From Schizochytrium sp. TIO01 (taxonomy: Eukaryota; Sar; Bigyra; Thraustochytrida; Thraustochytriidae), in the NCBI GenBank assembly GCA_004764695.1, contig SMSO01000037.1:3470337-3534336 (forward strand): a stretch of 64,000 nt of DNA, given 5' to 3'. Shown piece after piece: positions 5,976-27,957 of the stretch (within the stretch, counting starts at the first letter, position 1; each line of letters starts with the position of its first letter). The notes under the pieces were generated by a model. The model was not told the origin of the DNA and ran no database searches. It saw only the letters and a list, made by a program, of their open reading frames with translations. Both the position numbers and the translations under genes were made by a program.

Positions 5976-8900
5976 TCAAAGATCCAAATCTTCGTCTTCC
6001 CAACCAGATTGATTGGCCAAATTACTATTGTCATTGTCTCCACGTTCACCACTTTCTTGATCTCCTGCACTTTGGGCAGAAGCTTCACGATGCAACTCGT
6101 GCTCTTGCATAAAGCTAGCTACAAGGTTAGGTGATACTTCTGCTGAGGACTCTTGGTGAGAAGACTCAGCCAGCCGTTCAAAATCTGTAGTATCATACGG
6201 CAGTTGTCCAGATTGCGTGCGGTGTGGCCTAGCAGCTTGAGATCTTGTGACATCACCGCCCAGGTTTCTACCTTGCTCAGAAGCTGAATGCAAAAACTCA
6301 CGTGTTTCTTCATGCCCGTTCGATTCAGCTTCCCCCAAAGGGACTCCAAATGTAGAGATTTCATAGTCTGAGCCATCAGAGTCAAGGTCATCATTAAGGC
6401 CCCATGCGTCACCTGGATCTGCCTCATTTACAACAACATCATGTACACTTTGCTCCAAGCCTCCGCGTTGTCGTGTGTTGGCAAAGGTTTGTTCTCCTGC
6501 GTCGACAAGATCATTTGAGTTTTCCAATTGCTCCAATCCGTTCAATTCTTCACCTGTAGAGCCACCAGCCCTAACTGTCAGCGTGCCACCAAAATCGCTG
6601 GTCTCCTGCGCACCATCTTCTGCAGTACTAGATGAGTTTCTTGCCTCAACTCCTTCAACAGCAGAATTCTCAGTATTATCCGCTGCTATACTGTTTGAGG
6701 CATTAATAGCAGCTGCTTCAGCATCATCGTCGCTATAGTTGACATTTCCGCCACCATACGTTGCGAACGGAGAACTTGCAGACCCTTCCCCGGCATTAAA
6801 ATGTTCTCTGAGTTGTTGACGTGCGTGCACACTCAAAAGCCGTGGGGACCCAAAGTCGCCTGACTCTGCTGGCTCTCCTGCTGTTGTTGTACTATGCGCC
6901 TCTTCAGCATCATCTTCACCTCCGTAATTGTCGGTTAGAGTCCCAATTTCCGAAACTGGATCATGCTCTTCAAAGGCAACACCGCCCTCATGTTGCCGTT
7001 GTTCAAGCTCCATTCCAGCCTCTACGCCAGCAGACTGATGGATATCATCCTCGTGCACTTCATCGTGTGCAACATCTTCTCTTGCAAGACGAGCTTCATT
7101 GGTATCACCATTTTCATCGGCAACAATAGTACCGAGCTCCCTTACTTCCTCGGAAGTTCGATCAAGATTGGACTCGCTAGAACTGTGTTCTTCATCCGCA
7201 TTCTCATCTTCAAAAAATCCTTGTCTTCGCTCTTCAAAAGTCACTTCAGATGCATTATGGTCAGCTCCCCCATGAGCTCCTCCAGCATTTGTAGATGTTA
7301 CGCGGTGCTGTATTTCGCTAGACTCAAGCCCCCCATCATGATCAGTACTGGCTACATGTTGGTGCTCTTGGAATGAAGATGCCGTGCCTTCACCTGCAAG
7401 GTCCTCCTGAGATGAATTGGAGTGCCCAGTAGCACCTTCGGCTGGTGATGAGTGATCTGCGCTCGAAGGACTTGGGAAGTCTTGGCTTAAATCTATTCCT
7501 TCCAAACCTCTAGCAAGACGATCCATTGTGCTAGCGTTGCCACCAATTGCTAAATCATCGATATCACCAGAAGCGTTGGCTCCATTCTCAGCAGACGGAG
7601 CACCATGCATGGTTTCGGCAGGGAAGCTATGGTATTCTACATCACGACCAGTACTGATTTCTGCCTCACTTGAAGGCATCTGCCTAACTGTTACACTGGC
7701 ATGGCTCGAGCGGGAACTGACCGAACCTGCATCAATATCGCTCTCATTGTCCTGCCAGCCGCTACTTTCCCCTGTGATTGCTGTCTGTACAAGGCCGTCC
7801 GAAAGATCACTGGTCGAATGGCGTGTAACCCCTCTAGATGTATCATCACGCAGAAAGGTCACAGCAGGAGCGTCTGTGGAACTGACTTGGACACTGTCGG
7901 CATCAATAGCATCCACGTCACCCAAACTACTCTGGTCTTCCCAAGCTCTTTCAGACTTTTTGGAATCTTTCAAAGACTCATCATCCGGCTGGAAAACCTC
8001 AGCTTGCTTTGCATCATTATTTGTTGCTTTCATTGTATCACAATTTTCAGCATCTCCGTCTATGTCGCCCAAACTACTCTGGTCTTCCCAGCCTCCTTCA
8101 ACACCTGTGCTTTCTTTCAATAGATCATCATCTTGCTCGAATAACTCACCTTCATATGTGGTGTCATTCGATGCTTCTTGGGAGGTACCATCAACCACAG
8201 CATCCTCTTCGTCAATATCGCCTAGACTACTCTGATCGTCCCAGCCTCCTTTGGAAATTTGGCGATCTTTTAAAGCTTCGCAACCTTGATCAAACAAGCC
8301 GCTTTCATTAACATCAGTGGATGGTGCTTCTTTAGGGTTGCATGAATCATCTGCATTATCGGCGATAGTATTCAAACTGTTTTGATTGTTCCCAAATTCT
8401 TCACAATCTTCCACTTTCTTAACAGGTTCTTCACCTTCATCTGACAAGCCGATATATCCTTCATCCTCGACCATTGATCTCATTTGATGATTTGAAACAA
8501 TAGTGACCGATGAAAGTGGAGGTTCAGGACCTTCAGCATTTGAAACTGAGTCATCAAATGAAGATTTCGATACCTCAGAGACCTCACCCGAAGCATGAAC
8601 AGGTGGATATGACACGTTCAATGAACTGATTTCTTTGGCCGCCTCGGAAGCTTCTTTATCATCAATGTCTTTTGCTACTTGAACTTCAGCATTCGCTTCA
8701 TCGCATTTTTTTTGTTCGCATGAAAGTTTTGTTATGCCGTCGTGCTCTTCATTTTCGTGAATGACCTCGGATTGATGAAAGGCATCCTCTTCCTCTTCTT
8801 GTTCTTCTTGTTTCCCTAGTCCAACAAATTTTGCAAGGCTATTTTTGTGTTCATCATCGCCTTGGATGCTACTTGTTTCGGCTGGTTTGTCCTTTGGCTC

Positions 8901-11900
8901 CTCGTGCTCCAAACATCCCGTAACTCCACTCTGAAAAGAGGTTGTAATGAAATCTTGGATTGCATTTTCAGCTGGGTTTTGCTCATTTTCACTATTTTGA
9001 GCCACGGCAGCGTCATGGTCATTACTAAAAAGTGCTACTTGTCCAGCTTCAACAGCCTCTTCAACAGATGATACAGTTAGTTCTTTTTCTGAAAGCTTCG
9101 AATCAATATCTGCATGAAAGTCATGTTGATCGCTTTCCCATCCTGGCTCCTTATCGGATGAATATTCATCAGCTGTGTCGTTACTATATGGTTCTTCTTC
9201 CCTGTTAATCTTATCACTGTCATCTACGACTTCTACTTCTTCTGACAATTCGGGATCTTCTCTCCCAAAATTGAGATCATCACTTTCGTCTTCCCAACTG
9301 CTACTATTGAGAGCCACCTGCAAATCAGATTCTGTATAGGATTCCTTCTGACCAGAGAATTCCAGAAGCTCATCAATGTCCACTTCTGAGTCTTCCGCAG
9401 TATTCTCTGAAGAGATATTTGCAGGGGGGTAAATGGGAAAGCTCTTTTGATTTCCACTCTCTGAGGTGAAGTGAGCATTGTCTGTGTCATCTTCATCGCT
9501 ACCATCGTCAACCCAATCTGCTGAGAGCATTGAAGATAATCGGGACGCTTGATCAACGTGCAACGCTTCTCCCTCTTTGTGGCCTTCATCTTGAAGGCTA
9601 CTTTCATACATTCCACTAGCCTCCTGGTCGAACTCTACATCATCTGCATCATCATCGTCTACCCAGCCAGCTCCCCCAAGTGGGGCTAAAGCCTGAGCTC
9701 CTGTAGACATTAGACTTTGTGCAGAATCATCATTGGGACCCGAATAGATTTTCTCAACAACATCTAAATCATCCTCTCCCTTACTAGCCCAGCCTGTGGC
9801 ATCACTTGAGGTCGATGTTTGAGCAGCGAGGTTTGACACGGTCTTAGATTCACCAACCTCAAATGTTGGGACATCACTTTCCATGTGAGAAGTTTCCTTG
9901 CCTTCACTATTATTAACACAACGTGTTAACGAACTTCCTGGGTATTTGCCAATTTGTTCACCGCCAGCTTCATTGGTTTCTAGTATCTGATCTTGCGAGC
10001 GAGAAATAAGATCGTCCTGAAGGCATAAGTCATCGTTGGATGATTTAGGCTCTTCGATGCTAAGGTCGGCATCCTCTTTTTGGGGCCTACCATTTGCAAT
10101 AATCGACGCAGATGAGTGCACCATTGAGTCTCCAGCGCCTTCTTTGGAGAAGTCCATGACGACAGACGAGCCATTCATATCGAAGTCTGATTCATCATCA
10201 ACGACATTGCTGGCCTGGCCTTCTTCTGTAACAGGGGGGTCATCATTAGGTGCCATGTTCGTCTTAAAGTCTTTGGCAACATTAAAATTGACATTTTGCT
10301 GCCCAGAAGCTACTAGCTTTAACGTTTCCATATCAGTTTGCGATGGCGACGAAATTGCCTCCGGCCTAAGCGAGCTCTCCCCAGCTTCGCTAAAGTCCAA
10401 ATCTGAGCCATCTTCGTCACCATTAGGCCAACCTGAAGTTGTACTCGGTAAGTAATCCTCAACAACGGCACCATCCATGGTTGTTTGGATACATTTCTTT
10501 TCTGTGGTTGTCTCGTCATCATTATTACCATCTAAACGGAGCTTGTTATCATGGACACTTCTCTTATCTTCGAGATAGTTGCCTTCGATTGAATTTGGTA
10601 TCTGATCTTGATGTTCAGAAAAAGTGTGACTAGTATGTGAAGTTAAACAATTCGATACGTCTCCACCAGAGCTTGCATCCTCGTCCTCATCCTGATCGCA
10701 GCCAGAACTAGTACCAATGACTCTTGAGGCCTGAACAGAGTCGACCGTAGCTCTTTGATTCAAAGATTCTCCTGCAGAGCCCTTATCATCTTCTTCAAAA
10801 CTTAGATCCTCGTCCTCGTCTTCGCCCCAACCAGGACCAGTACCAGTACCTGCATCTGTTGAGGCTTGGGTAGGATCTCGCATTGCACTTGGATTCAAAG
10901 ATTCTCCTGCTGAGCCCTTATCATCTTCTTCAAAGTTTAAATCCTCGTCCTCGTCTTCGCCCCAACCAGGACCAGTACCAGTACCTGCATCTGTTGAGGC
11001 TTGGGTAGGATCTCGCATTACACTTTGATTCAAAGATTCTCCTGCAGAGCCCTTATCATCTTCTTCAAAGCTTAAATCCTCGTCCTCGTCTTCGCCCCAA
11101 CCAGGACCAGTACCAGTACCAGTACCGGTACCTGCATCTGTTGAGGCTTGGGCAGGGTCCCGCATTGCACTTTGAAGCAAAGATTCTCCTGTTGAAGCCT
11201 TATTATCTTCTTCAAAGCTTAAATCCTCGTCCTCGTCTTCGCCCCAACCAGGACCAGTACCAGTACCAGTACCGGTACCTGCATCTGTTGAGGCTTGGGC
11301 AGGGTCCCGCATTGCACTTTGAAGCAAAGATTCTCCTGTTGAAGCCTTATTATCTTCTTCAAAGCTTAAATCCTCGTCCTCGTCTTCGCCCCAACCAGGA
11401 CCAGTACCAGTACCAGTACCGGTACCTGCATCTGTTGAGGCTTGGGCAGGGTCCCGCATTGCACTTTGAAGCAAAGATTCTCCTGTTGAAGCCTTATCGT
11501 CTTCTTCAAAACTTAGATCCTCGTCCTCGTCTTCGCCCCAACCAGGACCAGTACCAGTACCTGCATCTGTTGAGGCTTGGGTAGGATCTCGCATTGCACT
11601 TTGAAGCAAAGATTCTCCTGCCAAGCCCTTATCATCTTCTTCAAAGCTTAAATCCTCGTCCTCGTCTTCGCCCCAACCAGGACCAGTACCAGTACCAGTA
11701 CCGGTACCTGCATCTGTTGAGGCTTGGGCAGGGTCCCGCATTGCACTTTGAAGCAAAGATTCTCCTGTTGAAGCCTTATCGTCTTCTTCAAAACTTAGAT
11801 CCTCGTCCTCGTCTTCGCCCCAACCAGGACCAGTACCAGTACCTGCATCTGTTGAGGCGTGGGCAGGATCTCGCATTAAACTTGGATTCAAAGATTCTCC

Positions 11901-14900
11901 TGCAGAGCCCTTATCATCTTCTTCAAAGCTTAAATCCTCGTCCTCGTCTTCGCCCCAACCAGTACCAGTACCTGTACCTGCATCTGTTGAGGCTTGGGCA
12001 GGATCTCGCATTGCACTTGGATTCAAAGATTCTCCTGCTGAGCCCTTATCATCTTCTTCAAAACTTAAATCCTCGTCCTCGTCTTCGCCCCAACCAGTAC
12101 CAGTACCAGTACCTGCATCTGTTGAGGCTTGGGCAGGATCTCGCATTGCACTTTGAAGCAAAGATTCTCCTGCTGAGCCCTTATCATCTTCTTCAAAACT
12201 TAGATCCTCGTCCTTGTCGTCGCCCCAACCAGGACCAGTACCAGTACCTGCATCTGTTGAGGCTTGGGCAGGGTCCCGCATTGCACTTTGAAGCAAAGAT
12301 TCTCCTGCTGAAGCCTTATCATCTTCTTCAAAACTTAGATCCTCGTCCTCGTCCTTACCCCAACCAGTACCAGAACCTGTGATCGTCGAGGCATGGACAG
12401 GGTCTCGCATTGCACTTTGATTCAAAGTTTCACCTGCCGAACCCTTATCATCTTCTTCAAAGTCTAGATTATCTTCGTCATCCCCACCCCAACCAGTGTT
12501 AGTATCTGCGGTTTGGGTCGTATTTTGTAATGCACTTTGAATCAAGGTTTCCTTTGTCAAAGACTTATCGCCCTCCCCAAAATCAAGATCATCATCTTCA
12601 ACCTGCCAGCCTGATATCGAATTCACTTCTGATTTACCAGGATCAATTTTGGCAACATTAGATTGCACATCAAGTCGTGCATTGGCGTCTTCATTGTCCC
12701 ATGAGTCATCCCAGTTGTCACCACTTTCAACTTCCTCATGCGATTCAACAACCTTTGAAGCCTGTTTTAGAAAACTTAAGAATGAAGACGATTCCTGCCG
12801 ATCCTGACAGCATGACTCATTGAAACGCATCAATGCAACACTTGCAAGCTCAGCAGCAAACTCCCATCCTAACCCCTGAATCTCACACAGAGAAGCTTGC
12901 ATAATCGCGTGGCGCAATGCAACGTGCCAAGCTGAGCCTGAGCACATAAGTTTTGGTGTATTATTGGCGTGAAGAATAACTTGACCGGCCTCAACAAATT
13001 CCCCGCGAAGGCAAAAAATCAGCGCGAGATAAATGGGGGACCAAGCCAGTGGCTGGGAGGAAATGTTCGAGAATTGAGAAAGCTTGAGAGATCGTTCTGA
13101 TAAAGGCTGAAGCAACTCGGAAGGGACAGTTGTCAATATGCATGTGACGAGTACAAGTTGTACAAGATCATCATCATTATCCAAATCAATAGCATCTTGT
13201 TTCCAAAGACTTGTTTCTGCGCTTGTCCGAACCTTATAATAGCCTGAAAAGAGTCCGAAGACAGGGAGATCGTGTGTCTGGCTCAAATCATTTTCAGCAG
13301 CTTCCGAAAGCAAAGCGATGCCATCAATTGAGTATCGAATTGAGTTCAGAAACTCCTTTTCGTTGTTTTCTGCGGCAATTTGAAATAATCCTTCCCATAC
13401 CTCAGAGTAAGCGCTCAAACGCGAGGTAAAATCAACCTGGCTACTTAATGGCACTTCTGGTGAGACATACTTTGTGATCAGACCAGAAGCCACCTTTTGT
13501 GCATGAAATTGCACAGAGTGATAGAAGTCTCCAAAGGGGAGTTTTTCGGCGGACAGTGCCTCCCATTCAAGGAGAAGATGTGCAGCACGCAAACGACTGG
13601 TAGCATCCTCCGGGCACCCAAGGTCTTTTAGCAGCTCGCATCTCTGCTGCACGGAGCCAACTTGGTCAATATGAATATCAGATGTCAAGGTCAAAGGCCA
13701 AATATCTTGCACTGATCTTAGTGCCTTGAGATTTTGCATCAACTCCTGATCACCATCTTGATCTAATCCTGCGAGACTCAAAAGCTTCAAGACATCGATG
13801 CGGAGCTTCTCAGAACTCGACTCAGAGGTGAATTCTCGCAATGCTCGTAACATAGATTCTCCTGTTGCACGCTCATCGTCAGATTGCAAATCAATTAAGT
13901 ACGATGTGATAGAGACTAGGGCAGATATTTCATCCATTGATGTATCTGGTTGATTCAATACATGATTCGAGATATCATGAAACATAGTTACAGGAGACAT
14001 TTCCATAGCAGCACACGCGTGTACAAGAACCTCTGCAGAGCAGCCGCCAGAGAGAGCAGCACCCTCGAACGCCATTTGTATCAAATCTGCAGACAAGCCA
14101 CTTTTTTCAAGGTTGTTAATGAGCTGCGTAGAATTAGGCCGATCAAGATCAAGATTTTCAAGCAGGAATCGAATACCCTGCAGAAAAGCTCCAGCTTGAT
14201 TCAGTGTTGCAAGTAGCTCGTCAGCGTTATCGACGGGCTTCCTATTTATGGCCGAAAGCAGGGCAGTGCGGCAGTCCTGGATGATGGTTTCTCGTAAATC
14301 CAAATCAAGAAGATCTAACATTCCACCCAAAGCTGCACAACGTTGAGCAAGGCTAACAATGTCGATTGGTACAAGGATGTGTACCAGTTCTGCACATGAC
14401 GATTTGTACGTTTGACGACCTGCCATCGCAGCCGACTGAGTTACTTCGGTAAGAAGATTACGTGGGACTTGCGAATTCTGATCCATGGTGGAGGAACCCA
14501 CCCCAAGCAAATGACAGCAGAAGTGTAGCACGATCTCACTCGGCCGGAGCTTAGGCAAGCATTCTACGTTTGAACTCAATAGCTTAGCTAGGCGCTTGAC
14601 ATTCTTCTTGTCCATGAGTCGATCAATCTCTACCAAAGCAGTTTCACGATCCACGGTCTCGTTTTCTGCAAGAGGCATGCACAGAAATAGTTTGGCATTG
14701 GGATGATATGCAAGTTTTTCGATGCGACGAAGAAAAGCCCGACGGTCCTTCAGACGTTTGTGTTCCTCCTCGTTGGAATCATCGTCTAAAGCTCGAAGCA
14801 TCAGGTTTTCAACAATCAAAAGCTGTTCATAATTGGTACCATCAATACCACGCCAGAGCTTGCTAAGCATACTCTGAGTTGCAGCTCGCTGTTCAAGGAG

Positions 14901-17900
14901 ACGGGTAACACCGTCGTCCTTGCGAAGTTGAGACTCAATTTCCTTGACTGGAGCTCCACTTAAAATAAGACCAGCAACACGGGCTGCGTCAAGATCCCAT
15001 CTTGAAGCCCCACCACACTCTTCAGCGAGTTCAACAAGCCCTAACCAGCTTGCACCATCTAGCGGCTCAAACGCATGTCCAAGTGCTCGTGCAGCATCCA
15101 TTAAAGAACGCTTGCGATATTTCTCATCAGATTTGAATAATGCAATATTTGCGTGGGGTAGAAGACGGAGCAGCGAGTGATTATCAGAAAGAGCTTTGCA
15201 ATTTTCACAAAGCCTTTGTGCTAAACGATGTAAATCATCATCCTTTTCCTTCAGAGTAGGAAGATATGAGCTAAGTCTCCGCAAGACCTTAGATGGGGGT
15301 TCTTGTAAAATTGCAACAGGAGCATCGGAACTAGCCGTAGCTGCAACCGCTACGGCGCGAAGAGCGCTATGAATGATTTGGGTTTGTTTTGAAGAAGCCT
15401 CCGGAGATTGCATAGCTTGTTGAAGGTAGTCGAGACATTCATCTACTTGCACAATAGCATCTGGATTATAAGAAAGTATTTCAGCCAAAGCCATTGTGGC
15501 CAAGTGCGGATTATGTGCAAGCTCGGATGTGGCCCAGGCAACAGGGCAGGCACGCCTTAGCTTGCGGAATGAAACCATACCGGAATCTCCTTCGAATACG
15601 CTAACCCAAGGTAGGTTGGCCAGAGCAACATCTGAGTTTTCAGGCGTTTCAATTGATTCCATAGTAGCCAAGGCGTCCCTAGAGGTTTCACCATCTCTAG
15701 CAAGAAGAAGAGCATGAAGTGCATACTTTTTCGAGTCATCAAGTTGTTTAAGGAGACCCGAGTTTGCCAAATGAAGACAAGCTTCGGCAGAAACTTGTGC
15801 AGTTCGCTCAACTGCAGGTGTTTTGTTGCCTTCCAAAAGAACATTTGCCTTTTCAACCATAGAGACTACAAGGCGTTGCGCTGTTTCAAGATCATGGTGA
15901 GAAAGAGCAGCCTTGAGAACGCGCAAACGAATAGAAGCTGATTGATCAGGAGCATCTAGACCCATCAAATACGCAAGACGCAAAAGTTTGGAGTCACTTT
16001 TGTAAAGCGTTGGGTTGGCTTCGAGAACCTTGTCAATAATCTCTTCTGGGCTCTCTGAGGCAATAAACATACGGACCTGCAAGGGGACCATTGGAGCCCC
16101 CAGTTGATTGCTTAGAAGATCGAGGATTTGTACAAGGTTGGCTTCAGTTTGCACACGTTGAGAAGCAGCGAAAGGAAGCGTCTTAAGAACCTGTTTAGCT
16201 TTGGCCATTTCTTGACTTCCGTAATCTGCAGAACTGTTAAAATACTCCTGAGAAACCTCAATTACAAGTTCTTCCATTTCCTCACGCGATAGAATAGAAT
16301 TCTCACCAGCAGCTTCATCCATGTCAATGATGAGTTCGTGAGCCACATCGAACTGGCCTGCGCGTAATAGTGTGAAAAGGCACTGCCGAGCAATGAACCG
16401 ACGGGACAAGTAGGGAAGAGCCTTACGAAGACTCCAAACTGCAGCCAATGCTTGATCCCAGTACTTGCGATCTGCGCCTTCGTGTTTTGAAGCTTGATCA
16501 AGTACGCGCAAAACCAAAGCAGCTCCTGGTTCCGATTCAGCCCTCTTAGAATTCAAGCCTGCAGATAAAACTTCATTTCTATCATCCTCTGAGACACGCT
16601 CCTGTTCTGCTGCCGGTGTATAGGGTCCTGACGCTTCGCTGTGTCCATCGCCAATCATCCATCGAGTATCCTCAATATTTTGGTCATTGGTCATGAGTTG
16701 TTCTAGGGTTTTACTTTCTTCTTGGGGGATTCCTGACGCAAGTAGCTTCTCGGCGCGCCGGGCTTCATCAGCTTGACAGCAATCAACAAAAAATTGTAAA
16801 GGTACAGCAGAAGCAAAAGTCTCAAGCTGCGAGTTTACATCCAAATGGGTATCTAAGAGCTCTACTCGATCCTGAAGCGCTGCAAGGGCTGGGACCTTGC
16901 TCTCAATCTCCGGTTGACGAGCAGGCAGAGACTGGAAGATCTTATCAAAACTTGTGCGAGCATCGGGTACAGGACAAGCATAACAGCAGGCAAGTGCGGT
17001 TTCTATGAGTGCTGTGGAGAGTGGGATCAGCCTGTCTTGACGAGGGAGACCGCCTTCATTCACAGAAAGTGGACGCGACTGATAAATCACTTCTGCGCAA
17101 AGAGCAATACCTTCACGCGCAGAATCTAAATCCCAAGCAATATAGGCTCCATCGTTAGACACAGGCGTCCCAGAAACAGGCATGTCACGAGGATCTTCCA
17201 AACCTCTTGAACGAGCCCGCAGGTAGCGTCGAACATGCCCCAACCACGTAATCAATGGGGGAGGTTGAAGATTTCGGTACCATGGCAGGGCACGAGCAGA
17301 CATGACTTTGACGATACTATTAGACGTTGTGCCATCCAATGCAACACAAAGTCGGGCATATTCGTCCATCATGTTCCAGCTTGAGAGGGTCAAGGTGTCC
17401 CTGAGACCAGTTTGGTAGACAAGGCGATCAAGATCTCGCGTGTTTTGCACCAGGAGATTGAGTTGGACTCCAGCAGGATCAGCAGCGCAGGATTCGAGTC
17501 GCACATTCGCACATTGGCTCAATTCGAGAGCTAAGTCGAGCATGCCACTAGCTTGGTCAATTTCTAAGATACGGTGAGTGTACCATTCTGCAATTGTTTC
17601 TAAACGGGACACAACAAAAGGGAGAGGATCCATGTTGGCGATAGGTTTTACAGACCCATCGGCGCCGAGAATTTGGTATACGTTGGCACTGATCGTAGGA
17701 TCATACGCAGGTAGAATGTCGGCATATTCCATGGGGCTAGTAGTCTCGGGAAAGCAGGATAGTACTGAGAGAAGTTCTGGAGCAAGATCCACTGGAAAAG
17801 CCGAAACAAGTTTATGCACTGTGCCTACGTGTCCCTCTTCAGCAGCTTCACGTGCAATGCGAGCTATGTCCTGAGTTCGAAATATTGAGAATTCAACAGC

Positions 17901-19805
17901 CTCGTAACCTTGTTCACCACGAATAGCAAGAAAAACATCCAAACGATAACGAAGGTTTTCAATTTCCTGCATTATGCTTGTCTGTGATTCAGAAAGTGAA
18001 GTTTCACTTTGAGTACATCTTTCAATACCAAGATCGAGTAGTGCGCGTACTGCATCTTCCGAGGAGGGTAATTGGTTGACACACTGATCCAATACCCAGT
18101 CAAGGTCTTTCACGAGTGCTAAAGTTTGGCGAATGTGCACAGTTGTCTTGGGAGATGCGTTTTCCCACTGCGCCTTCGTCATCAAGTCTGCATCTAAGCC
18201 AAAGTTATCTAGCAAAATCTGCGCTTGCTCAAAGTCCGCTTTTTGAAGGTAGTGCTTATAAAGCTCCGGTGGACTGCGTCCAACAATTGCAGATAAGCGG
18301 TAATGGCGTAACAATAAATAACCACCTTTTAAAATAGTCGCGTTTGGAGGCCTTTGCTCGTCCTGAGGTATCCATTGTTTATCGCAAGTCAAGGCAAATG
18401 CCAGCGCAGAACTTGATCTACTTCCAGCTGCTGCAAGGCTCATGGGTCGACTGAGTCTACTGTCAAGAGTTTCTACCAATAACGAAGTCTTTGGCAATTG
18501 ATCTTCAAGTGGAACAAGGGTGAGCTTGCCATAACTTGAAGATGTTTCCTTCTTGGCAAGAATCAAATGGTGTTCATCCCACCAAGCAACATCTAGAACT
18601 GTTTCACCAACATCCGAACGTGCGACAACTGCATTTCCTAGATCGGTAGGTGCCGCAGCGTTAAACTGAAGACCCGAATAGCGCACAATGAGACGCCCAC
18701 CACGCGTAAGGCTAGCAAGGTACTGTCCCGTGGGTGACAACGCGAGCTGCACCACGCGCTCGCGCTGGGGAATTCGCGATATGCCGAGAGGGGTTAGAAA
18801 CCCTAGGGCTCCAGGCGGTGAAGGGTCCCCGGGAGCGCGAATAGGAAGTTCCCGAATCCTTTCGAAATAGGGAGCAGAGTCCAAAAGTAAAATCAGAAAA
18901 AGATTCTCATCACATGCCAGGGTGAGCACATCCCCGCCTTTCGGACCAAAGAAAACATCGTCTGACTTAGTTTTCCAAAGTGCAGTCCTTTGAACTGCCC
19001 CACCACCAATGTTCAAAATTCTTGAAAACTCCACACCAGGGTTGCCGACAAAATATGTTGGTGGTAAAGGTCGAACATCGGGTTCTCCACTTACAGCTAC
19101 ACGTAGAATACACGCTTGATTTGAAATAACAACAAGCTCTGATGATGAGCGAAAGTGGATACTAGCAACAACACCATGTTCTCCGCCAAGTTCAACAAGT
19201 TGACCGACCTTTGAGACGGACTGTGTTGCCACATTTACACGCAGAACAATCACTTGTGCTGATCCATGACAACAGCAAGCAAGCAGATTACCTTCTGTAT
19301 TCCATGCACATTCATCAACTGATTTTAACAACTTGAGGTCCACGTCGACAGTTCTTGCATGACGGCCTCCAACAGTAAAACACACGCCAACTGAACCAGC
19401 TTGGCGTTTCGCAATCGCGCACAATCCATTGTTTGTAGTTGCCACTCGCCACTTCAAAGGCTCTTGTAAATGCTGATCCGGTTGAGCACCACCAAAGAGG
19501 AAACGTACAAGTTGTGCCCACACAGTAATGCTTTCTGCCGCAAGCTCTTCTTCAGCTTCCTGAAAAGCTGCCGAGTTCATTTTGTCCTGACGAGCCTTCT
19601 CTTCTGCAGAAAGTCGCTCAAGCCCAAACATATGACCTCCACATTCCGGATACCATCCGTGTCCCACATCGTCTCTCGTCGCCCTGTACGCAGAAATCAG
19701 AACCAAGACAACATTATTTTCAGTCCGGTGCCGTGTTAATATAAAATTCGAGATAATTGGATCAACACCAGGCTTAACTTTCGTCAGTTTCTGCAACACA
19801 TTCAT
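5976..19805 (-). CDS. NBAS: NBAS/Sec39-like NRZ (Dsl1) tethering subunit with giant acidic tail
   Basis: This intronless frame encodes 4609 residues. The first ~2350 match the NBAS family in order and length (human NBAS is about 2.37 kb of residues). Residues ~90-480 form a WD-like N-terminal beta-propeller, including the segment VLDVAWWDEHH. The propeller-to-solenoid junction near residue 510 carries SPPELYKHYLQKADFEQAQ. A long Sec39-type alpha-solenoid follows. NBAS/Sec39 partners ZW10/Dsl1 and RINT1/Tip20 to capture COPI vesicles at the ER. From ~2355 onward comes a ~2250-residue Asp/Glu/Ser-rich tail with about 26 Trp-acidic motifs, fourteen of them in a tandem array, ending GWEDEDLDL. 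I place the start at ATG 19805; the upstream codon at 19820 is GTG. The propeller/solenoid call is firm; a function for the tail is inference. Confidence 0.9.
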   Translation of the reverse strand: MNVLQKLTKVKPGVDPIISNFILTRHRTENNVVLVLISAYRATRDDVGHGWYPECGGHMFGLERLSAEEKARQDKMNSAAFQEAEEELAAESITVWAQLVRFLFGGAQPDQHLQEPLKWRVATTNNGLCAIAKRQAGSVGVCFTVGGRHARTVDVDLKLLKSVDECAWNTEGNLLACCCHGSAQVIVLRVNVATQSVSKVGQLVELGGEHGVVASIHFRSSSELVVISNQACILRVAVSGEPDVRPLPPTYFVGNPGVEFSRILNIGGGAVQRTALWKTKSDDVFFGPKGGDVLTLACDENLFLILLLDSAPYFERIRELPIRAPGDPSPPGALGFLTPLGISRIPQRERVVQLALSPTGQYLASLTRGGRLIVRYSGLQFNAAAPTDLGNAVVARSDVGETVLDVAWWDEHHLILAKKETSSSYGKLTLVPLEDQLPKTSLLVETLDSRLSRPMSLAAAGSRSSSALAFALTCDKQWIPQDEQRPPNATILKGGYLLLRHYRLSAIVGRSPPELYKHYLQKADFEQAQILLDNFGLDADLMTKAQWENASPKTTVHIRQTLALVKDLDWVLDQCVNQLPSSEDAVRALLDLGIERCTQSETSLSESQTSIMQEIENLRYRLDVFLAIRGEQGYEAVEFSIFRTQDIARIAREAAEEGHVGTVHKLVSAFPVDLAPELLSVLSCFPETTSPMEYADILPAYDPTISANVYQILGADGSVKPIANMDPLPFVVSRLETIAEWYTHRILEIDQASGMLDLALELSQCANVRLESCAADPAGVQLNLLVQNTRDLDRLVYQTGLRDTLTLSSWNMMDEYARLCVALDGTTSNSIVKVMSARALPWYRNLQPPPLITWLGHVRRYLRARSRGLEDPRDMPVSGTPVSNDGAYIAWDLDSAREGIALCAEVIYQSRPLSVNEGGLPRQDRLIPLSTALIETALACCYACPVPDARTSFDKIFQSLPARQPEIESKVPALAALQDRVELLDTHLDVNSQLETFASAVPLQFFVDCCQADEARRAEKLLASGIPQEESKTLEQLMTNDQNIEDTRWMIGDGHSEASGPYTPAAEQERVSEDDRNEVLSAGLNSKRAESEPGAALVLRVLDQASKHEGADRKYWDQALAAVWSLRKALPYLSRRFIARQCLFTLLRAGQFDVAHELIIDMDEAAGENSILSREEMEELVIEVSQEYFNSSADYGSQEMAKAKQVLKTLPFAASQRVQTEANLVQILDLLSNQLGAPMVPLQVRMFIASESPEEIIDKVLEANPTLYKSDSKLLRLAYLMGLDAPDQSASIRLRVLKAALSHHDLETAQRLVVSMVEKANVLLEGNKTPAVERTAQVSAEACLHLANSGLLKQLDDSKKYALHALLLARDGETSRDALATMESIETPENSDVALANLPWVSVFEGDSGMVSFRKLRRACPVAWATSELAHNPHLATMALAEILSYNPDAIVQVDECLDYLQQAMQSPEASSKQTQIIHSALRAVAVAATASSDAPVAILQEPPSKVLRRLSSYLPTLKEKDDDLHRLAQRLCENCKALSDNHSLLRLLPHANIALFKSDEKYRKRSLMDAARALGHAFEPLDGASWLGLVELAEECGGASRWDLDAARVAGLILSGAPVKEIESQLRKDDGVTRLLEQRAATQSMLSKLWRGIDGTNYEQLLIVENLMLRALDDDSNEEEHKRLKDRRAFLRRIEKLAYHPNAKLFLCMPLAENETVDRETALVEIDRLMDKKNVKRLAKLLSSNVECLPKLRPSEIVLHFCCHLLGVGSSTMDQNSQVPRNLLTEVTQSAAMAGRQTYKSSCAELVHILVPIDIVSLAQRCAALGGMLDLLDLDLRETIIQDCRTALLSAINRKPVDNADELLATLNQAGAFLQGIRFLLENLDLDRPNSTQLINNLEKSGLSADLIQMAFEGAALSGGCSAEVLVHACAAMEMSPVTMFHDISNHVLNQPDTSMDEISALVSITSYLIDLQSDDERATGESMLRALREFTSESSSEKLRIDVLKLLSLAGLDQDGDQELMQNLKALRSVQDIWPLTLTSDIHIDQVGSVQQRCELLKDLGCPEDATSRLRAAHLLLEWEALSAEKLPFGDFYHSVQFHAQKVASGLITKYVSPEVPLSSQVDFTSRLSAYSEVWEGLFQIAAENNEKEFLNSIRYSIDGIALLSEAAENDLSQTHDLPVFGLFSGYYKVRTSAETSLWKQDAIDLDNDDDLVQLVLVTCILTTVPSELLQPLSERSLKLSQFSNISSQPLAWSPIYLALIFCLRGEFVEAGQVILHANNTPKLMCSGSAWHVALRHAIMQASLCEIQGLGWEFAAELASVALMRFNESCCQDRQESSSFLSFLKQASKVVESHEEVESGDNWDDSWDNEDANARLDVQSNVAKIDPGKSEVNSISGWQVEDDDLDFGEGDKSLTKETLIQSALQNTTQTADTNTGWGGDDEDNLDFEEDDKGSAGETLNQSAMRDPVHASTITGSGTGWGKDEDEDLSFEEDDKASAGESLLQSAMRDPAQASTDAGTGTGPGWGDDKDEDLSFEEDDKGSAGESLLQSAMRDPAQASTDAGTGTGTGWGEDEDEDLSFEEDDKGSAGESLNPSAMRDPAQASTDAGTGTGTGWGEDEDEDLSFEEDDKGSAGESLNPSLMRDPAHASTDAGTGTGPGWGEDEDEDLSFEEDDKASTGESLLQSAMRDPAQASTDAGTGTGTGTGPGWGEDEDEDLSFEEDDKGLAGESLLQSAMRDPTQASTDAGTGTGPGWGEDEDEDLSFEEDDKASTGESLLQSAMRDPAQASTDAGTGTGTGTGPGWGEDEDEDLSFEEDNKASTGESLLQSAMRDPAQASTDAGTGTGTGTGPGWGEDEDEDLSFEEDNKASTGESLLQSAMRDPAQASTDAGTGTGTGTGPGWGEDEDEDLSFEEDDKGSAGESLNQSVMRDPTQASTDAGTGTGPGWGEDEDEDLNFEEDDKGSAGESLNPSAMRDPTQASTDAGTGTGPGWGEDEDEDLSFEEDDKGSAGESLNQRATVDSVQASRVIGTSSGCDQDEDEDASSGGDVSNCLTSHTSHTFSEHQDQIPNSIEGNYLEDKRSVHDNKLRLDGNNDDETTTEKKCIQTTMDGAVVEDYLPSTTSGWPNGDEDGSDLDFSEAGESSLRPEAISSPSQTDMETLKLVASGQQNVNFNVAKDFKTNMAPNDDPPVTEEGQASNVVDDESDFDMNGSSVVMDFSKEGAGDSMVHSSASIIANGRPQKEDADLSIEEPKSSNDDLCLQDDLISRSQDQILETNEAGGEQIGKYPGSSLTRCVNNSEGKETSHMESDVPTFEVGESKTVSNLAAQTSTSSDATGWASKGEDDLDVVEKIYSGPNDDSAQSLMSTGAQALAPLGGAGWVDDDDADDVEFDQEASGMYESSLQDEGHKEGEALHVDQASRLSSMLSADWVDDGSDEDDTDNAHFTSESGNQKSFPIYPPANISSENTAEDSEVDIDELLEFSGQKESYTESDLQVALNSSSWEDESDDLNFGREDPELSEEVEVVDDSDKINREEEPYSNDTADEYSSDKEPGWESDQHDFHADIDSKLSEKELTVSSVEEAVEAGQVALFSNDHDAAVAQNSENEQNPAENAIQDFITTSFQSGVTGCLEHEEPKDKPAETSSIQGDDEHKNSLAKFVGLGKQEEQEEEEDAFHQSEVIHENEEHDGITKLSCEQKKCDEANAEVQVAKDIDDKEASEAAKEISSLNVSYPPVHASGEVSEVSKSSFDDSVSNAEGPEPPLSSVTIVSNHQMRSMVEDEGYIGLSDEGEEPVKKVEDCEEFGNNQNSLNTIADNADDSCNPKEAPSTDVNESGLFDQGCEALKDRQISKGGWDDQSSLGDIDEEDAVVDGTSQEASNDTTYEGELFEQDDDLLKESTGVEGGWEDQSSLGDIDGDAENCDTMKATNNDAKQAEVFQPDDESLKDSKKSERAWEDQSSLGDVDAIDADSVQVSSTDAPAVTFLRDDTSRGVTRHSTSDLSDGLVQTAITGESSGWQDNESDIDAGSVSSRSSHASVTVRQMPSSEAEISTGRDVEYHSFPAETMHGAPSAENGANASGDIDDLAIGGNASTMDRLARGLEGIDLSQDFPSPSSADHSSPAEGATGHSNSSQEDLAGEGTASSFQEHQHVASTDHDGGLESSEIQHRVTSTNAGGAHGGADHNASEVTFEERRQGFFEDENADEEHSSSESNLDRTSEEVRELGTIVADENGDTNEARLAREDVAHDEVHEDDIHQSAGVEAGMELEQRQHEGGVAFEEHDPVSEIGTLTDNYGGEDDAEEAHSTTTAGEPAESGDFGSPRLLSVHARQQLREHFNAGEGSASSPFATYGGGNVNYSDDDAEAAAINASNSIAADNTENSAVEGVEARNSSSTAEDGAQETSDFGGTLTVRAGGSTGEELNGLEQLENSNDLVDAGEQTFANTRQRGGLEQSVHDVVVNEADPGDAWGLNDDLDSDGSDYEISTFGVPLGEAESNGHEETREFLHSASEQGRNLGGDVTRSQAARPHRTQSGQLPYDTTDFERLAESSHQESSAEVSPNLVASFMQEHELHREASAQSAGDQESGERGDNDNSNLANQSGWEDEDLDL
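7905..8300 (-). repeat. Three-copy degenerate coding repeat (W-D/E-DQSSLGD units)
   Basis: Within the NBAS tail, three ~49-residue units each contain GWDDQSSLGDID or a close variant (AWEDQSSLGDVD in the third). They are spaced about 150 bp apart at ~8240, ~8090 and ~7940. Each is preceded by a segment of the type LF-x-QDDE-x-LKDS. Divergence is much greater than in the 45-residue array upstream, so this looks like an older expansion. Confidence 0.8.
10660..12615 (-). repeat. 45-residue (135 bp) coding tandem array, 14 units plus one degenerate
   Basis: The unit, read on the minus strand, is GWGEDEDEDLSFEEDDK followed by GSAGESL, a hydrophobic/Met segment (QSAMRDPAQASTDA) and a Gly-Thr run. 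The GWG codons sit at regular spacing: 135 bp for the basic unit and 147 bp where the Gly-Thr run is four residues longer. The N-terminal units (GWQVEDDDLDF, GWGGDDEDNLDF) and the C-terminal one (Trp replaced by Cys in GCDQDEDED) are diverged, while the central units are almost identical in DNA. This is the usual edge-decay picture of a homogenised array. The long plus-strand frames over this interval are antisense shadows. Confidence 0.95.
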
Positions 19806-21215
19806 CCGAAATTTAGACACTTTGCTTCAAATCCCCCACTGCTACAAACGGATTTTACTCTGCTATCTTCCGACCTTCAATGCTGGTGCATCAGAATAGT
19901 CTTCCCGTCTGAAGCACATCGAGAGAGTGCCTAGACGAATACGCAGACAGGATATTGCCAAATTCAACCTCGAAATCGCCAATTGGACTAGAAGGTGCCT
20001 CAAAAGCCGAGGGGCTCAAAATACGAGGATAAAAAGAAGACAGCAATATCAGGCCGCTTGCACTAAATTCATTGGAACAAAGAAGCCCAGGCTCGACAAA
20101 GTGCTAAACATGTCGAGGCCAAGTGAGGCGCTTGCCAAGAGCGTCTCAAAGGTCGCAAGTCAGGGCTAGCGACCTTCGTGAACTCGTCCTGTGCCAGTCT
20201 GGGCGGCATTTTGGCCGAAGAAAAACTTACATCCTGCGAGCATCGCCTACTACCTTGGGATCAGACGACCCAATGGAAGTTCCTGCCATCGCATCCAGTT
20301 GCATCGTGGGCCCTTGCGCCGCAAGGTCTTTGCGCCAAAGCGGATTTGCCTGCAACCTCAACTTTCTTCAACAAGTTTGTTCAACAACATGATTTTTTGA
20401 GAGAACTTCAAATTGTTATGAGGAAATAATGATCTTGTCCGAAATGCTTCTTTTCATACAATATTACTGACTTTCTTTCTTGAATTTAGGACAAGGCGGT
20501 ATTTTATATCATCTCAAGCATCTCTAAAGTGAGTTTAGTATGGCGTACTTAATGTCTCCTCAATCTCAATTCTGAGCTACTTTCAATATCTAGCCTACCC
20601 TACATAGTTTAAAGTCTTTGCTCTCCCCTGTCTGTCGTAAGGCAAGCTATCTTGGGCCTATCTCCACGTTTGCCTTTGTCGTTCGTTCATGAGTGTGGGT
20701 GGCATGACGAGACTGTGCTTCATGTCATAACTATGCCAATGTGGTTAAGTTTGTCTGATCATTTAATTATTTTTATTTGTAATTAAAGAATGTACGTACG
20801 TACATCATGATAATTAAAGAATAAAGAAGAATGAATAAGTGCTTTCTAAGCGGCAAATCCAAATCCAGAGCCGCTAGATCCGAAACTCCGAGACGAGAGA
20901 CGGCTCGAGACACACAGAGGCCGCGCTGTGGCGGCAAGGAGTTCGCTCGACGGAGGCTCAGACCCGAATCTGCTGGCGACACCGAGGATTTTGCCTCACC
21001 GTGCTAGAACCAACGGCCTAGAATAGAGGGACTTAGGCTGTTTGGCCCAAGTATCGAGGATCTCTGCTGTACTTGTGAGACTAGGTTCACAGATCAAAAC
21101 TGATTCTGTGTGAACATCGACATCGTGGGATTCGAGATCTACAAAACATCAAGCAACTTGGGCCGGGAGAATCTTGGGGAGCATTGTTTATTTCGGTAAC
21201 TAAATAGTTGCATAA
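19806..21215. other. Divergent intergenic region, NBAS-like / MFS
   Basis: This is the shared upstream region of the NBAS-like gene (-) and the MFS transporter gene (+). Frames of 60-90 codons exist at 19927-20429 but lack a suitable ATG or any domain. A 14-bp palindrome lies at 20791-20804. No other structure was seen. Confidence 0.6.
20791..20804. repeat. Perfect 14-bp palindrome flanked by direct repeats
   Basis: TGTACGTACGTACA is a perfect palindrome about 410 bp upstream of the MFS transporter ATG. AATTAAAGAA lies immediately before it at 20781-20790, and the same decamer recurs shortly after it near 20812. It could be a binding site; no function is shown. Confidence 0.6.
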
Positions 21216-24334: not shown

Positions 24335-25025
24335 TTTAAGAGGCTGCGTGGATATTCCGACAATCCCAGTTTTACGTCGCTTTGCAGGGCGTGAATTTGT
24401 AGACTGATTTATGACATAAGCGAGGTTTCATTGACTGCTCAAAATGCGCGAAAATTAGCTAACCGCCACAAGTCCCGGATTTCCGTTTTAGCATTCTGAT
24501 ATATCGGAATTTCGGAGAAACTCCGTTCCAATTCGTGTTTTAAATCTGTGTTCTTTCTTTCCTTTCCCTTTTCATCATTTGTAATTTTAGCTTTCGTTTT
24601 ATTTTTATTTTTCAACAAAATAAAATAAAAATAGCATATTATTTTAATTTAAAAAAAAAAAAAAAAAAAAAACTCTAAATATTATTTTAAAATGAAACCC
24701 ATGATGTAGAACTGTAAAATGGCTACCTCAAATTTTGAACCAGAGCTTCTTTTTGCATGGGTCCTCGGAATCACTCATGTAAACCGAAAAGTTTTACTTT
24801 AAGATTTGAGTGTAAAGCAGAAGATTATCTCGAGGTTTGCTTCATTTCCTGTTCTCTACCAAAAAAAAGAAAAAAAAAAGAAAAAGAAAAAGAAGAGATA
24901 AGATGAAAGCTAATGCTTGTATGATCTGCATTGGGAAAAGTTGCCACAATTTGTAGGTGAAGAAAGCAAAGCAAAAGCTCATTTGCTGGAGCAAACCGAG
25001 CTTTGCTTGAGCGAGCTTGACCAGG
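24335..25025. other. Divergent intergenic region, Spc25 / kelch
   Basis: AT-rich region with a 22-base A run at 24651-24672 and a purine-rich stretch at 24866-24900. Several frames run in from the kelch gene side, but they are antisense or alternative-frame shadows. No RNA gene or additional protein was seen. Confidence 0.6.
24651..24672. repeat. Poly-A run, 22 bases
   Basis: Uninterrupted A homopolymer following ATTTTAATTT, in the Spc25/kelch divergent region. Confidence 0.95.
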
Positions 25026-26663
25026 ATGGCTTGGATCGAGCCCCCCGTCGGCCCAAGTGGAAACTCTTCTCCTTGGAGAGCATCGGTGTCGTCCAGTTCG
25101 CCCTCTCCACGCACGTATCATAGCTTGACATGGGTGCCAGAGCTGCACCAAGCTGTTCTTATTGGAGGGACACAGGGAGACCAACTTCTCGCAGACGTAC
25201 ACGTGTTCTCGTATACGGGAGATCAGGGATGGCATTGGAAGGAGATGGATGTCAAACTCAGTGGAACTCGAAATGCTCTCACACCACGTGCACGCCATTC
25301 TGCAATAACAATTGACGGCAAGATTTACGTTTTTGGTGGCATTGGAGGCGGAGAAGCTGTCTTCTCGCTGGATCTGCACAAGAAGAGATGGATTCGTCTG
25401 AAAACCACAGGCAGGGGACCATGTGCTCGCTTTGCGCATATTGCAGCTAGCATTCATGACGACATGATTATTGCTGGAGGCCATACTGGGGACCACTTTG
25501 TAATGGACGTGTTTCGATTCCAAACACAAACTCGGAAATGGTCGCAGCTCACTATCAAGCCTTCGGCTAATTTGCCACCATCTCTTCACTACGTGGGTTG
25601 TACAGTTGGTGATAGTGAAATTATTGTGCTAGGAGGATCCATCGGTGCTGAGATAGACCACGCTTATGTTCTTCGTCAGCCCAAAGTCGCAGAAACGGCG
25701 CCACAGGGCAGCCAGAGGCACCTTTCTTTTGCTTCTATGCACCGCGGAGGAACATCATCAACTCGTTTAATGCACCCAAATATGTCGATGCGAGAGCAGA
25801 TCATGCACAATAGCTCAAGTAGTCGTGCGTACAAGTGGGTTAAAGTTCACCTTGATGGAGCTCGCCAAGTTGGAGAACGCTACCCCAAGATAGGATATGG
25901 TCAAGCATTAGTATCCCGACTTATTTCGACAGCACGTGTAGCACTCGGCTCGGAGCAACAGCAACTTGTGTTTCTTGCCGGAGCTGTTCTACCTCCGTCT
26001 CAGTGTCCAGTCTCCAACCCTTTTGAGTCCCCACTTACTTCTATATGGACTCTGCGCATATCCATCACGGGATCTGGAAATATGAAAACAGGACGCCAGC
26101 GTGGTCTGCATGAAGCAAATTCACTTCAGTGGTCGGTGCAGCACACTTTAGGACAAATTCCACCAGTTCGAATTGGCACATCATGCGTAACAATTACAAA
26201 TTCTTCTTTGCAATCAGGGCTTCTTATATTCGGCGGTACTCTGGCCCCGACGCAACCAGTGTCAAAATATACAGACCCAAACCCTTTGCCTAGTCCTAAC
26301 AAATACTCTTCTCTTGCATTTGACACATCTAATACAAATAGAGAAAACCAAGCAGACAACGACCGAAACTTTGGACGGTATTTTACATGTACGACGCACA
26401 TTTGTGATTTATCAGCATATGCTATCTGGAGAAGTCTCACAGACACGCTCAGCGTCAAACAGAGTCAGTCTTGGTATGGCCATGCTCTTGTTTCACTCGG
26501 ATCTAGTCCAGAGAACCCTCATTTGGAGCAAGTGTTTATGTTTGGTGGCCAGACCATGCACGAGGGACTGGCGATACTAGTTCGTAACGTGCGAACTAAT
26601 CTATGGAGCTGGCAAACGCCCCCGCGTTCTACTTTGAAGGAGCTCAGAGACGCACCAAAATGA
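25026..26663 (+). CDS. Kelch-repeat protein, N-terminal reading frame
   Basis: This frame gives 545 residues from ATG 25026 (the frame opens nine bases earlier at a TTG). Kelch blades are visible: VLIGGTQGDQLLADVHVFSY near residue 45, then RHSAITIDGKIYVFGG, HIAASIHDDMIIAGGHTGD, SEIIVLGG and LLIFGGTLAP, and a last blade VFMFGGQTMHEGLAILVRN followed by LWSWQ. That is about six blades with diglycines and conserved aromatic/Trp positions, interrupted by a Ser-rich insert after residue ~215. The frame ends at TGA 26661-26663, directly after a complete blade. The next frame, overlapping from 26638, continues with further blades, so this is probably the first half of one ~976-residue protein. The binding partner is unknown. 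Confidence 0.85.
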   Translation: MAWIEPPVGPSGNSSPWRASVSSSSPSPRTYHSLTWVPELHQAVLIGGTQGDQLLADVHVFSYTGDQGWHWKEMDVKLSGTRNALTPRARHSAITIDGKIYVFGGIGGGEAVFSLDLHKKRWIRLKTTGRGPCARFAHIAASIHDDMIIAGGHTGDHFVMDVFRFQTQTRKWSQLTIKPSANLPPSLHYVGCTVGDSEIIVLGGSIGAEIDHAYVLRQPKVAETAPQGSQRHLSFASMHRGGTSSTRLMHPNMSMREQIMHNSSSSRAYKWVKVHLDGARQVGERYPKIGYGQALVSRLISTARVALGSEQQQLVFLAGAVLPPSQCPVSNPFESPLTSIWTLRISITGSGNMKTGRQRGLHEANSLQWSVQHTLGQIPPVRIGTSCVTITNSSLQSGLLIFGGTLAPTQPVSKYTDPNPLPSPNKYSSLAFDTSNTNRENQADNDRNFGRYFTCTTHICDLSAYAIWRSLTDTLSVKQSQSWYGHALVSLGSSPENPHLEQVFMFGGQTMHEGLAILVRNVRTNLWSWQTPPRSTLKELRDAPK

Positions 26664-27957
26664 CACTGGTTCAAGCTTTTTTAGTAATAGCAAGCCCTCC
26701 ACCCTAGTCGTTGCTACTCAAACCCGATCGTTGTCTTCAAAGGATGGGGCAGCTTTGATTTTTGCTTTTGGAGGGAATCGTATTAACTTACAAACAATCG
26801 GCGATACTCTTTGGGTGGTTGCTTGCAGTTCGTTAACAGATTATCAGTCTTCATGGGTTTCCGCGTCCCCAAAAGAAGTTGTGCACGATACAGCTGCTTC
26901 TGACGAAGGTTCTTTGCCATGTCAAGTCATATGCGCTTCTGAAGGATGGCTATGCGGTGACGATGCCTGGCCACGTGCGCGACGTGGTCACACTGTGTGC
27001 ATGCATCGGGACAATTTATTTGTAATTGGTGGTCTTTCTCAAGACGGGGAGTTGCTTGGTGATGTCTGGTCTCTGCGTACGGATGGTACCCTTTATAATC
27101 CTTCATTATCCTCTGAAAAGCAAGTGGATGTTGAAAATATTCGTTGGAAGTGCCACACTGCTCAAGGGGCAGATGGGAGCTACGTTCAAGAGGTTTTCAC
27201 ACCTCGTGTTGGACATTCCTGTGTATCTGTGAATTCCTTAAATAAGGTATTCGTTTTTGGAGGGTGCAGCGCAACTAATGTTCCTCGTATCGGAAGTAGC
27301 TCGAAGGCCGCCACTCGCAATGCAGACTGGGATGCTCCGAATGTGTCAAGTAAAAGCCTTTCTAATGACCTTTTCGTTTTAGATTGCAATAATAAAAAAC
27401 CCGAGTGGCATCGATTAGATACGTGCAGCTCAGGCCGTCCGCCATCACCTAGGTATCTGCACACGTGTACTGTAATTTCTGACCATACTAGCACAGGTGC
27501 CTTTGCACGTCCGCGCCTTTGCGTGGTGGGTGGCTGGGGACTGTCTCGGTCTGCTATGGAGTTGAACCTTGGCCCGTCTCAACCACAAGTTCAAAATGAT
27601 GTTTTTCTTTACGACATTGCAACGCAAACATGGAGTGACCTCCGTTTACAGACATCACCGGAGTGTCCTCTAAAATTTCCAGCACTTATTAACCTGAGGT
27701 CATGTACATTATCAACACCAAGTGAGGTATTGATTTTTGGGGGGGCACTGAACATCAGAACTGTGAACAGTAGTGCTAAAGAGAGCCAATCTGCCACAGA
27801 TGATCCATTAGTGCATGCTGTAGTCACAAAAAACGAAACGGCCTCCAAGACCTCTTTTCAGGTAGCACCTACTGAGCTTTTCAGTACAGCGACCAATAGT
27901 CAATTCATTCATATTGACACAAGGATGCGCTCTTTGCTTCTAGAAGAACATGTATAA
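26638..27957 (+). CDS. Kelch-repeat protein, C-terminal reading frame (probably same gene, +1 frame)
   Basis: This frame is open from 26638, just after an in-frame TGA, and overlaps the end of the preceding kelch frame. It has no ATG until about the second blade, so it cannot start a sensible protein on its own. Blades: ALIFAFGGNRINLQTIGDTLWVV, GHTVCMHRDNLFVIGGLSQDGELLGDVWSL, GHSCVSVNSLNKVFVFGG with a later NDLFVLD and WHRL, RLCVVGGWG with NDVFLYDIATQTWSDL, and VLIFGGALN. That adds about five blades, giving two propellers' worth in total. Joining at AAA-TGA-C (26658-26664) by skipping one base gives a continuous loop into the first blade. The break could be an assembly error, a genuine mutation, an intron, or a programmed +1 shift. 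Confidence 0.75.
   Translation, partial: RSSETHQNDTGSSFFSNSKPSTLVVATQTRSLSSKDGAALIFAFGGNRINLQTIGDTLWVVACSSLTDYQSSWVSASPKEVVHDTAASDEGSLPCQVICASEGWLCGDDAWPRARRGHTVCMHRDNLFVIGGLSQDGELLGDVWSLRTDGTLYNPSLSSEKQVDVENIRWKCHTAQGADGSYVQEVFTPRVGHSCVSVNSLNKVFVFGGCSATNVPRIGSSSKAATRNADWDAPNVSSKSLSNDLFVLDCNNKKPEWHRLDTCSSGRPPSPRYLHTCTVISDHTSTGAFARPRLCVVGGWGLSRSAMELNLGPSQPQVQNDVFLYDIATQTWSDLRLQTSPECPLKFPALINLRSCTLSTPSEVLIFGGALNIRTVNSSAKESQSATDDPLVHAVVTKNETASKTSFQVAPTELFSTATNSQFIHIDTRMRSLLLEEHV

Follow-up and report, generated by a model that had tools for sequence, protein, structure and literature searches.

The window studied here, a stretch of 64,000 nucleotides of Schizochytrium sp. TIO01 (contig SMSO01000037.1, positions 3,470,337 to 3,534,336), contains a long open reading frame (ORF) that is best read, from its sequence, as the gene of the NBAS/Sec39 subunit of the Dsl1/NRZ complex, a vesicle tether of the endoplasmic reticulum (ER), extended by an acidic tail in which about 25 tryptophan motifs recur. 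These motifs appear to resemble closely the singleton tryptophan motif of alpha-COP, both that of the same organism and that of mammals. We consider it probable that the tail captures coatomer, the coat of coat protein complex I (COPI) vesicles, in a multivalent manner and possibly contributes to uncoating, from a position on the Sec39/NBAS subunit and not on Dsl1/ZW10 as in yeast.

The division into about 2350 NBAS-like residues followed by a tail of about 2250, proposed in an earlier note on this DNA, was borne out (head, residues 1–2357; tail, residues 2358–4614; Table 1). Human NAG is given as 2371 aa in PMC4206994. In a Pfam search, the frame matched Sec39 (PF08314) at E=3.8e-28 (98.9 bits vs. 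a cut-off of 22), and in the whole assembly (64.06 Mb, 37 contigs) the only two Sec39 matches both fell inside it. NBAS and ROD are described as structural relatives (PMC4206994), and for this reason ROD was searched for separately. The first ARM domain of KNTC1/ROD also matched the present frame (E=1.3e-7), which speaks against a clean split from ROD. A separate ROD-like gene (Rod_C, E=7.3e-25) was found on another contig (L061:2714-8389; G000:C13, minus strand), as a frame of 1892 aa without an acidic tail, so a ROD/KNTC1 homologue occurs alongside NBAS, ZW10 and RINT1. The two partner subunits were recognized as RINT1 (E=9.8e-56, frame of 843 aa) and ZW10 (ZW10_C, E=3.3e-18; Zw10_middle, E=3.1e-10; the Zw10_N profile alone had no match in the genome). 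The assignment to NBAS/Sec39 was made because a distinct ROD gene, RINT1 and ZW10 are all present.

Of the NBAS-like propeller and solenoid described in the earlier note, the Sec39 homology stood, and the propeller was not firmly supported. The profile Nbas_N (PF15492) found no match, which is not evidence of absence since the control likewise matched nowhere. AlphaFold2 models had low confidence, too poor for a structure search (mean predicted local distance difference test, pLDDT, of 33 for residues 81–525 and 42 for residues 526–1500); in these models the first segment was beta-rich and the second almost entirely alpha. A search of the PDB gave no match, whether the complete ORF or a single repeat was the query, and no relatives of the head were found among viral contigs.

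The earlier note had raised the alternative of transcripts ending near 12.7 kb, which would make the tail a separate gene. Judged on the genomic frame alone, the frame is continuous and no stop lies between head and tail, and a separate tail gene was rejected. An ATG first occurs at residue 6, with others at residues 64 and 81. There is no need to invoke splicing, because the other genes read in this genome likewise form long unbroken frames (alpha-COP, 1269 aa; TMF golgin, 1236 aa; RINT1, 843 aa; ROD, 1892 aa), but some genes may be interrupted, since an ArfGAP1-like frame has a stop within its match. Codon usage of the tail outside the tandem array correlated with that of the head at 0.70 in frame, yet one reverse frame reached 0.75, and the measure is therefore not discriminating as proof that the tail is translated.

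The tail is rich in aspartate (12.5%) and glutamate (12.1%), and 22 of its 22 hundred-residue segments fell on the disordered side of a charge-hydropathy line, vs. one of 23 in the head. Glycine precedes 22 of the 28 tail tryptophans, and all 28 are followed by at least four acidic residues within the next 10 positions. When the genome was searched for paralogues with the whole tail, only the tail itself was matched at E≤1. A motif was counted where at least three Asp or Glu residues lay between a Trp and a Leu, Ile, Val or Phe at W+4 to W+11, this hydrophobic residue being preceded by Asp, Glu or Asn. The rule was drawn up once the motifs were already known, and shuffled sequences were scored by the identical rule. 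It selected 25 of the 28 tail tryptophans, close to the roughly 26 Trp-acidic motifs noted earlier, vs. none of 30 in the head, and 1000 shuffles of the whole tail gave a mean of 3.3 motifs and a maximum of 9. Approximately half of the motifs are supplied by one tandem array, with a second small repeat, dispersed copies and the C-terminal GWEDEDLDL supplying the rest; for this reason the motifs cannot be counted as separate inventions, and the array may vary in copy number or have been mis-assembled. After removal of residues 2501–3010, which hold most of the array, 14 of 17 tryptophans still fitted, and none of 1000 shuffles of this shortened tail in 60-residue blocks reached 14 (maximum of 8).

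The singleton tryptophan motif of alpha-COP was reportedly set out by Travis et al. in PNAS in 2019, and we take 6tzt and 6u3v to be structures from that work. Directly before the C-terminal domain, the alpha-COP of this organism (COPI_C, E=2.0e-103) reads AWGGDDDDLDIEF / GAGAAWGGDDDDLDIEFDDDM. The equivalent place reads GWDVEEDLEL / GGGWDVEEDLELPPELD in mammalian alpha-COP from the PDB, also in the construct 6tzt_B, and GWGEDAELQL / GWGEDAELQLPPELD in the PDB construct 6u3v_B. The tail repeat GWGEDEDEDLSF / GWGEDEDEDLSFEEDD and the terminal GWEDEDLDL share this form, in which a small residue (Gly or Ala) precedes Trp, an acidic run comes next and a hydrophobic-x-hydrophobic pair closes the motif, all within an acidic segment (compare GWGEDAELQL of 6u3v with GWGEDEDEDLSF). 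Mammalian alpha-COP and 6u3v have a spacing of 6 between Trp and the first hydrophobic residue of this pair; the value is 7 for the own alpha-COP and ranges from 5 to 10 among most copies in the tail. The own alpha-COP differs in carrying one copy by the motif rule, in cis to the binding domain, whereas NBAS carries about 25 with mostly slightly longer spacing. Of two residues described as part of the alpha-COP binding site, Arg1058 (within ICREYI, which is identical) is kept in the own alpha-COP and Cys1013 is replaced by Ala, the positions being counted on the alignment. Singleton tryptophan motifs are described as ligands of the alpha-COP C-terminal domain that serve coat self-assembly and ER tethering (PMC10866661). 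The motif bound by delta-COP is given as W-x(1-6)-[W/F] inside an acidic stretch (PMC11441981), a form that fits only two of the 28 tail tryptophans, those of WDDSW and WESDQHDF. A delta-COP di-Trp reading of the whole tail was rejected on this spacing, and because of this count alpha-COP is the better candidate of the two receptors named in the earlier note, the other being the mu-homology domain of delta-COP.

None of the tryptophans of ROD (24), ZW10 (3) or RINT1 (10) satisfied the same rule, and neither did any in the frame identified by eye as delta-COP, which among the genome's five matches to the adaptor mu domain has the poorest score (E=4.1e-29). In the ZW10 frame (836 of 850 aa read) one of the three tryptophans has acidic neighbors and none lies in a motif, in line with the absence of an acidic Trp loop from the ZW10/Dsl1 homologue that the earlier note had proposed to check. 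The COPI-capturing role suggested there is favored in part, by the alpha-COP-like motif and by its absence from ZW10 and RINT1; the scarcity of the delta-COP form counts against delta-COP as the receptor, and binding to coatomer is a prediction. The 36 proteins scored were a non-random sample, several having been fetched because they matched a pattern. By the rule as given, which is loose, 14 of the 36 had at least one match: NBAS 25, a 442-aa ORF 4, TMF 3, L033 3, UBR 2, a glycosyltransferase-like protein 2, and eight proteins, including alpha-COP, 1 each. With Gly or Ala required before Trp, seven remained (NBAS 23, TMF 3, the 442-aa ORF 2, and alpha-COP, L033, the glycosyltransferase-like protein and a WD-repeat protein 1 each). 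When the genome was scanned blindly for [GA]W[GDE][GDE][DE]3, 22 sites were found vs. 5 for the reversed pattern; of the 22, 11 lay in the NBAS tail, one in alpha-COP, one in TMF and nine elsewhere. A scan for GW[DE]4 gave 9 sites vs. 6 reversed; four were in frames of more than 100 aa (the NBAS C-terminus, the TMF golgin and two others) and the remaining five in frames of less than 100 aa. Its sites included GWDEEEISIPDEW, in a frame of at least 580 aa that is ankyrin-like by eye, and GWDDEELAERP in a large frame.

The TMF golgin (TMF_TATA_bd, E=1.8e-17; L029:2125-5835, G000:C6, minus strand) resembles the NBAS tail in its acidic N-terminal half with three GW-acidic motifs, GWDEEDDLELDID, GWGDADDDSIDL and GWDDQEDEI, but is by homology a Golgi coiled-coil tether and has these three only. 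It also has an N-terminal MDWGSSW. Human TMF is described as capturing intra-Golgi vesicles through its N-terminus and coiled coil (PMC5267433), and vesicle recognition by golgins is said to remain unclear (PMC11441981). Since matches are found in alpha-COP, the NBAS tail and the TMF golgin, the motif class is shared by the coat and two tethers of vesicles, although other proteins have it as well. The 442-aa acidic ORF (L059:4114-5442; G000:C13, plus strand) has two WSDEDF, two GWGDD and an acidic C-terminus, matched no Pfam family (best E=0.15) and lies downstream of an ORF that is AP-3 beta-like by eye; it may be an unrecognized COPI or adaptor partner. The WD-repeat protein, so classed by eye (L044; G000:C30:7389669, plus strand), has the acidic Trp motif AWEDDDDADIHVNL. 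One ArfGAP frame (L026; G000:C35:1248998, plus strand) contains DFGDWDAFEE, a match to the W-x(1-6)-[W/F] form of delta-COP ligands.

Several observations weigh against a coatomer-capturing tail. The spacing in the tail repeats (8) exceeds that of both mammalian and own alpha-COP. None of 11 own ArfGAP frames (several incomplete), which are expected COPI partners, has a GW-acidic motif, and four have one loose-rule match; since no ArfGAP is among the seven proteins retained under the Gly/Ala rule, this is mild evidence against a universal COPI code here. Of the nine other sites of the blind scan, five are in ORFs of less than 80 aa, one is in the 442-aa ORF of unknown kind and three are in proteins without an obvious COPI link (by eye RCC1-repeat, glycosyltransferase-like and WD-repeat). 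Finally, the ratio pN/pS (nonsynonymous to synonymous changes) among the array copies was 0.11–0.16 in the motif core vs. 0.56–0.66 in the spacer, which is suggestive, but a column permutation for selection on the core (10 of 13 copies) was not significant (p=0.13). Purifying selection on the core is not claimed, and selection on the motif is unproven because the repeat copies are too alike.

A tail that bound coatomer mainly through the mu-homology domain of delta-COP, as the lasso of yeast Dsl1 does by its WxW motifs, would have WDDSW, at the head/tail junction, and WESDQHDF as fitting sites in acidic sequence, and the delta-COP candidate as its receptor; insect FAM114A is described as binding COPI by WDDW (PMC11441981). 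This is unlikely in view of the two fitting sites among 28 and of 17 other tryptophans from which the next Phe lies 8–11 residues on. We regard as improbable to a similar degree that the motifs bind another partner that reads acidic and aromatic residues, such as kinesin light chain, an adaptor ear domain or another tether. Short W-acidic motifs serve several transport adaptors, similar motifs occur in the 442-aa ORF, which has no Pfam family, and single W-acidic sites occur in proteins without an evident COPI link. Kinesin W-acidic motifs, however, have acidic residues and Leu before the Trp, where the tail mostly has Gly (22 of 28). Adaptor-ear ligands have a short WxxF spacing, which is absent in the tail, the nearest W-to-F/W sites being WDDSW and WESDQHDF, and the likeness to alpha-COP is closer. 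That the tail is a neutral low-complexity repeat expansion without a dedicated partner agrees with the array origin of about half the motifs and with the non-significant permutation. We consider it very improbable, since without residues 2501–3010 the 14 remaining motifs, whose spacers differ by eye, exceed all local shuffles, the protein ends in a motif, and similar motifs are present in alpha-COP and TMF.

Under the preferred reading, capture through alpha-COP, the NBAS tail would be a flexible arm of the ER vesicle tether that baits the COPI coat at many sites, each W-(acidic)n-hydrophobic-x-hydrophobic motif mimicking the singleton tryptophan motif that joins one alpha-COP to the C-terminal domain of a second. 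The tail motifs would bind that domain, and about 25 copies would confer avidity and reach, so that incoming COPI vesicles could be snared far beyond the tether body. The contour length of the tail is approximately 0.8 micrometre (2257 residues x 0.36 nm), and the yeast complex is described as a 20 nm tower (PMC4206994). Competition with alpha-COP's own motif for the alpha-COP site could loosen the coat and aid uncoating; PMC4206994, with reference to Zink et al. 2009, mentions a proposal that yeast Dsl1 acts in blocking the re-polymerisation of COPI. A wider scheme, which we advance tentatively and consider somewhat doubtful, is that COPI capture relies on interchangeable disordered arms on different tether subunits. 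Here, a Sec39/NBAS arm of several hundred nanometres with about 25 self-assembly-like motifs might allow a single tether to hold numerous coatomers, to remove the coat competitively and, possibly, to concentrate coatomer in a condensate where vesicles arrive at the ER.

Recognition of COPI vesicles by an ER tether is best worked out in yeast, via the Dsl1 loop. This lasso has only a few Trp motifs, including one of the singleton type, and binds delta- and alpha-COP. Like the NBAS tail, it is part of an ER tether complex, is acidic and unstructured, and bears Trp residues (PMC4868844, PMC4206994), but it is central and on Dsl1, a ZW10 relative, while the present segment is C-terminal on Sec39/NBAS, with 2257 residues and about 25 motifs. 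Because the lasso is said in PMC4868844 to be missing from the homologues of Dsl1 in metazoans, plants and aquatic fungi, the earlier suggestion that vesicle binding was moved away from Dsl1 probably has the direction wrong; the yeast loop looks like the lineage-specific element. The same source names UVRAG as the mammalian link, and a review poses the question of which partners bind the NAG propeller and C-terminal extension (PMC4206994). NBAS/NAG of animals and MIP2 of plants share the head length and the Sec39 domain (PMC4206994), but human NAG, compared by length and description, roughly equals the head alone in length. In the open-access literature searched, no description of a comparable NBAS tail was found, and the tail may be more widespread among NBAS proteins than this one genome shows. 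If the proposed role is true, an arm on Sec39/NBAS would supply the COPI-binding element seemingly missing from non-yeast Dsl1 complexes, and a tail copying the coat's assembly motif would be a concrete, testable answer on COPI recognition for one lineage. Such a tail would also offer a naturally occurring multivalent tool for probing the site on alpha-COP, and it suggests that vesicles could be captured and uncoated in a single event.

Table 1. Features of the NBAS/Sec39 gene and its tail (positions in the window).
Feature	Position	Strand	Remarks
NBAS/Sec39-tail ORF	5976..19820	-	4614 codons plus stop, one frame, no internal stop
Head, residues 1-2357	12750..19820	-	length about that of a whole NBAS
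ARM-repeat match, KNTC1/ROD first domain, residues 525-663	17832..18248	-	Pfam
Second Sec39 match	17271..17855	-	PF08314 positions 4-213
Best Sec39 domain match, residues 1101-1332	15825..16520	-	PF08314 positions 412-656
Acidic tail, residues 2358-4614 (2257 aa), predicted disordered	5976..12749 (codons 12749 down to 5979)	-	28 Trp, net charge -434
WDDSW, head/tail junction	12699..12713	-	fits delta-COP W-x(1-6)-[W/F] form
Tandem array	10753..12462	-	about 12-13 copies (10753-12461: 12.3 of 135 bp, 90% matches), unit 135-147 bp, each with GWGEDEDEDLSFEEDD or a variant
Divergent dispersed motifs GWPNGDEDGSDLDF, GWASKGEDDLDV, GWVDDDDADDVEF, DWVDDGSDEDDTDNAHF, SWEDESDDLNF	9267..10433	-	
GWESDQHDFHADI (contains WESDQHDF)	9105..9143	-	second site fitting W-x(1-6)-[W/F]
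Smaller second repeat, [GA]W[DE]DQSSLGD[IV]D	7914..8243	-	3 copies, about 50 residues apart
GWQDNESDIDA	7728..7760	-	
AWGLNDDLDSD	6375..6407	-	Trp-acidic site failing the motif rule
C-terminal GWEDEDLDL	5979..6005	-	motif forms the last nine residues of the protein

Other genes were seen in the window. An ODAD1-like outer-dynein-arm docking coiled coil at 28852-30774 (E=6.4e-19) suggests a motile cilium in Schizochytrium sp. TIO01. An ORF of 1354 aa with PT disordered repeats lies at 58694-62758 (E=1.2e-22). Two adjoining kelch-repeat ORFs on the same strand (25017-27957), with 67 bases between them, may be two parts of a single gene that an intron or a frame change has divided.

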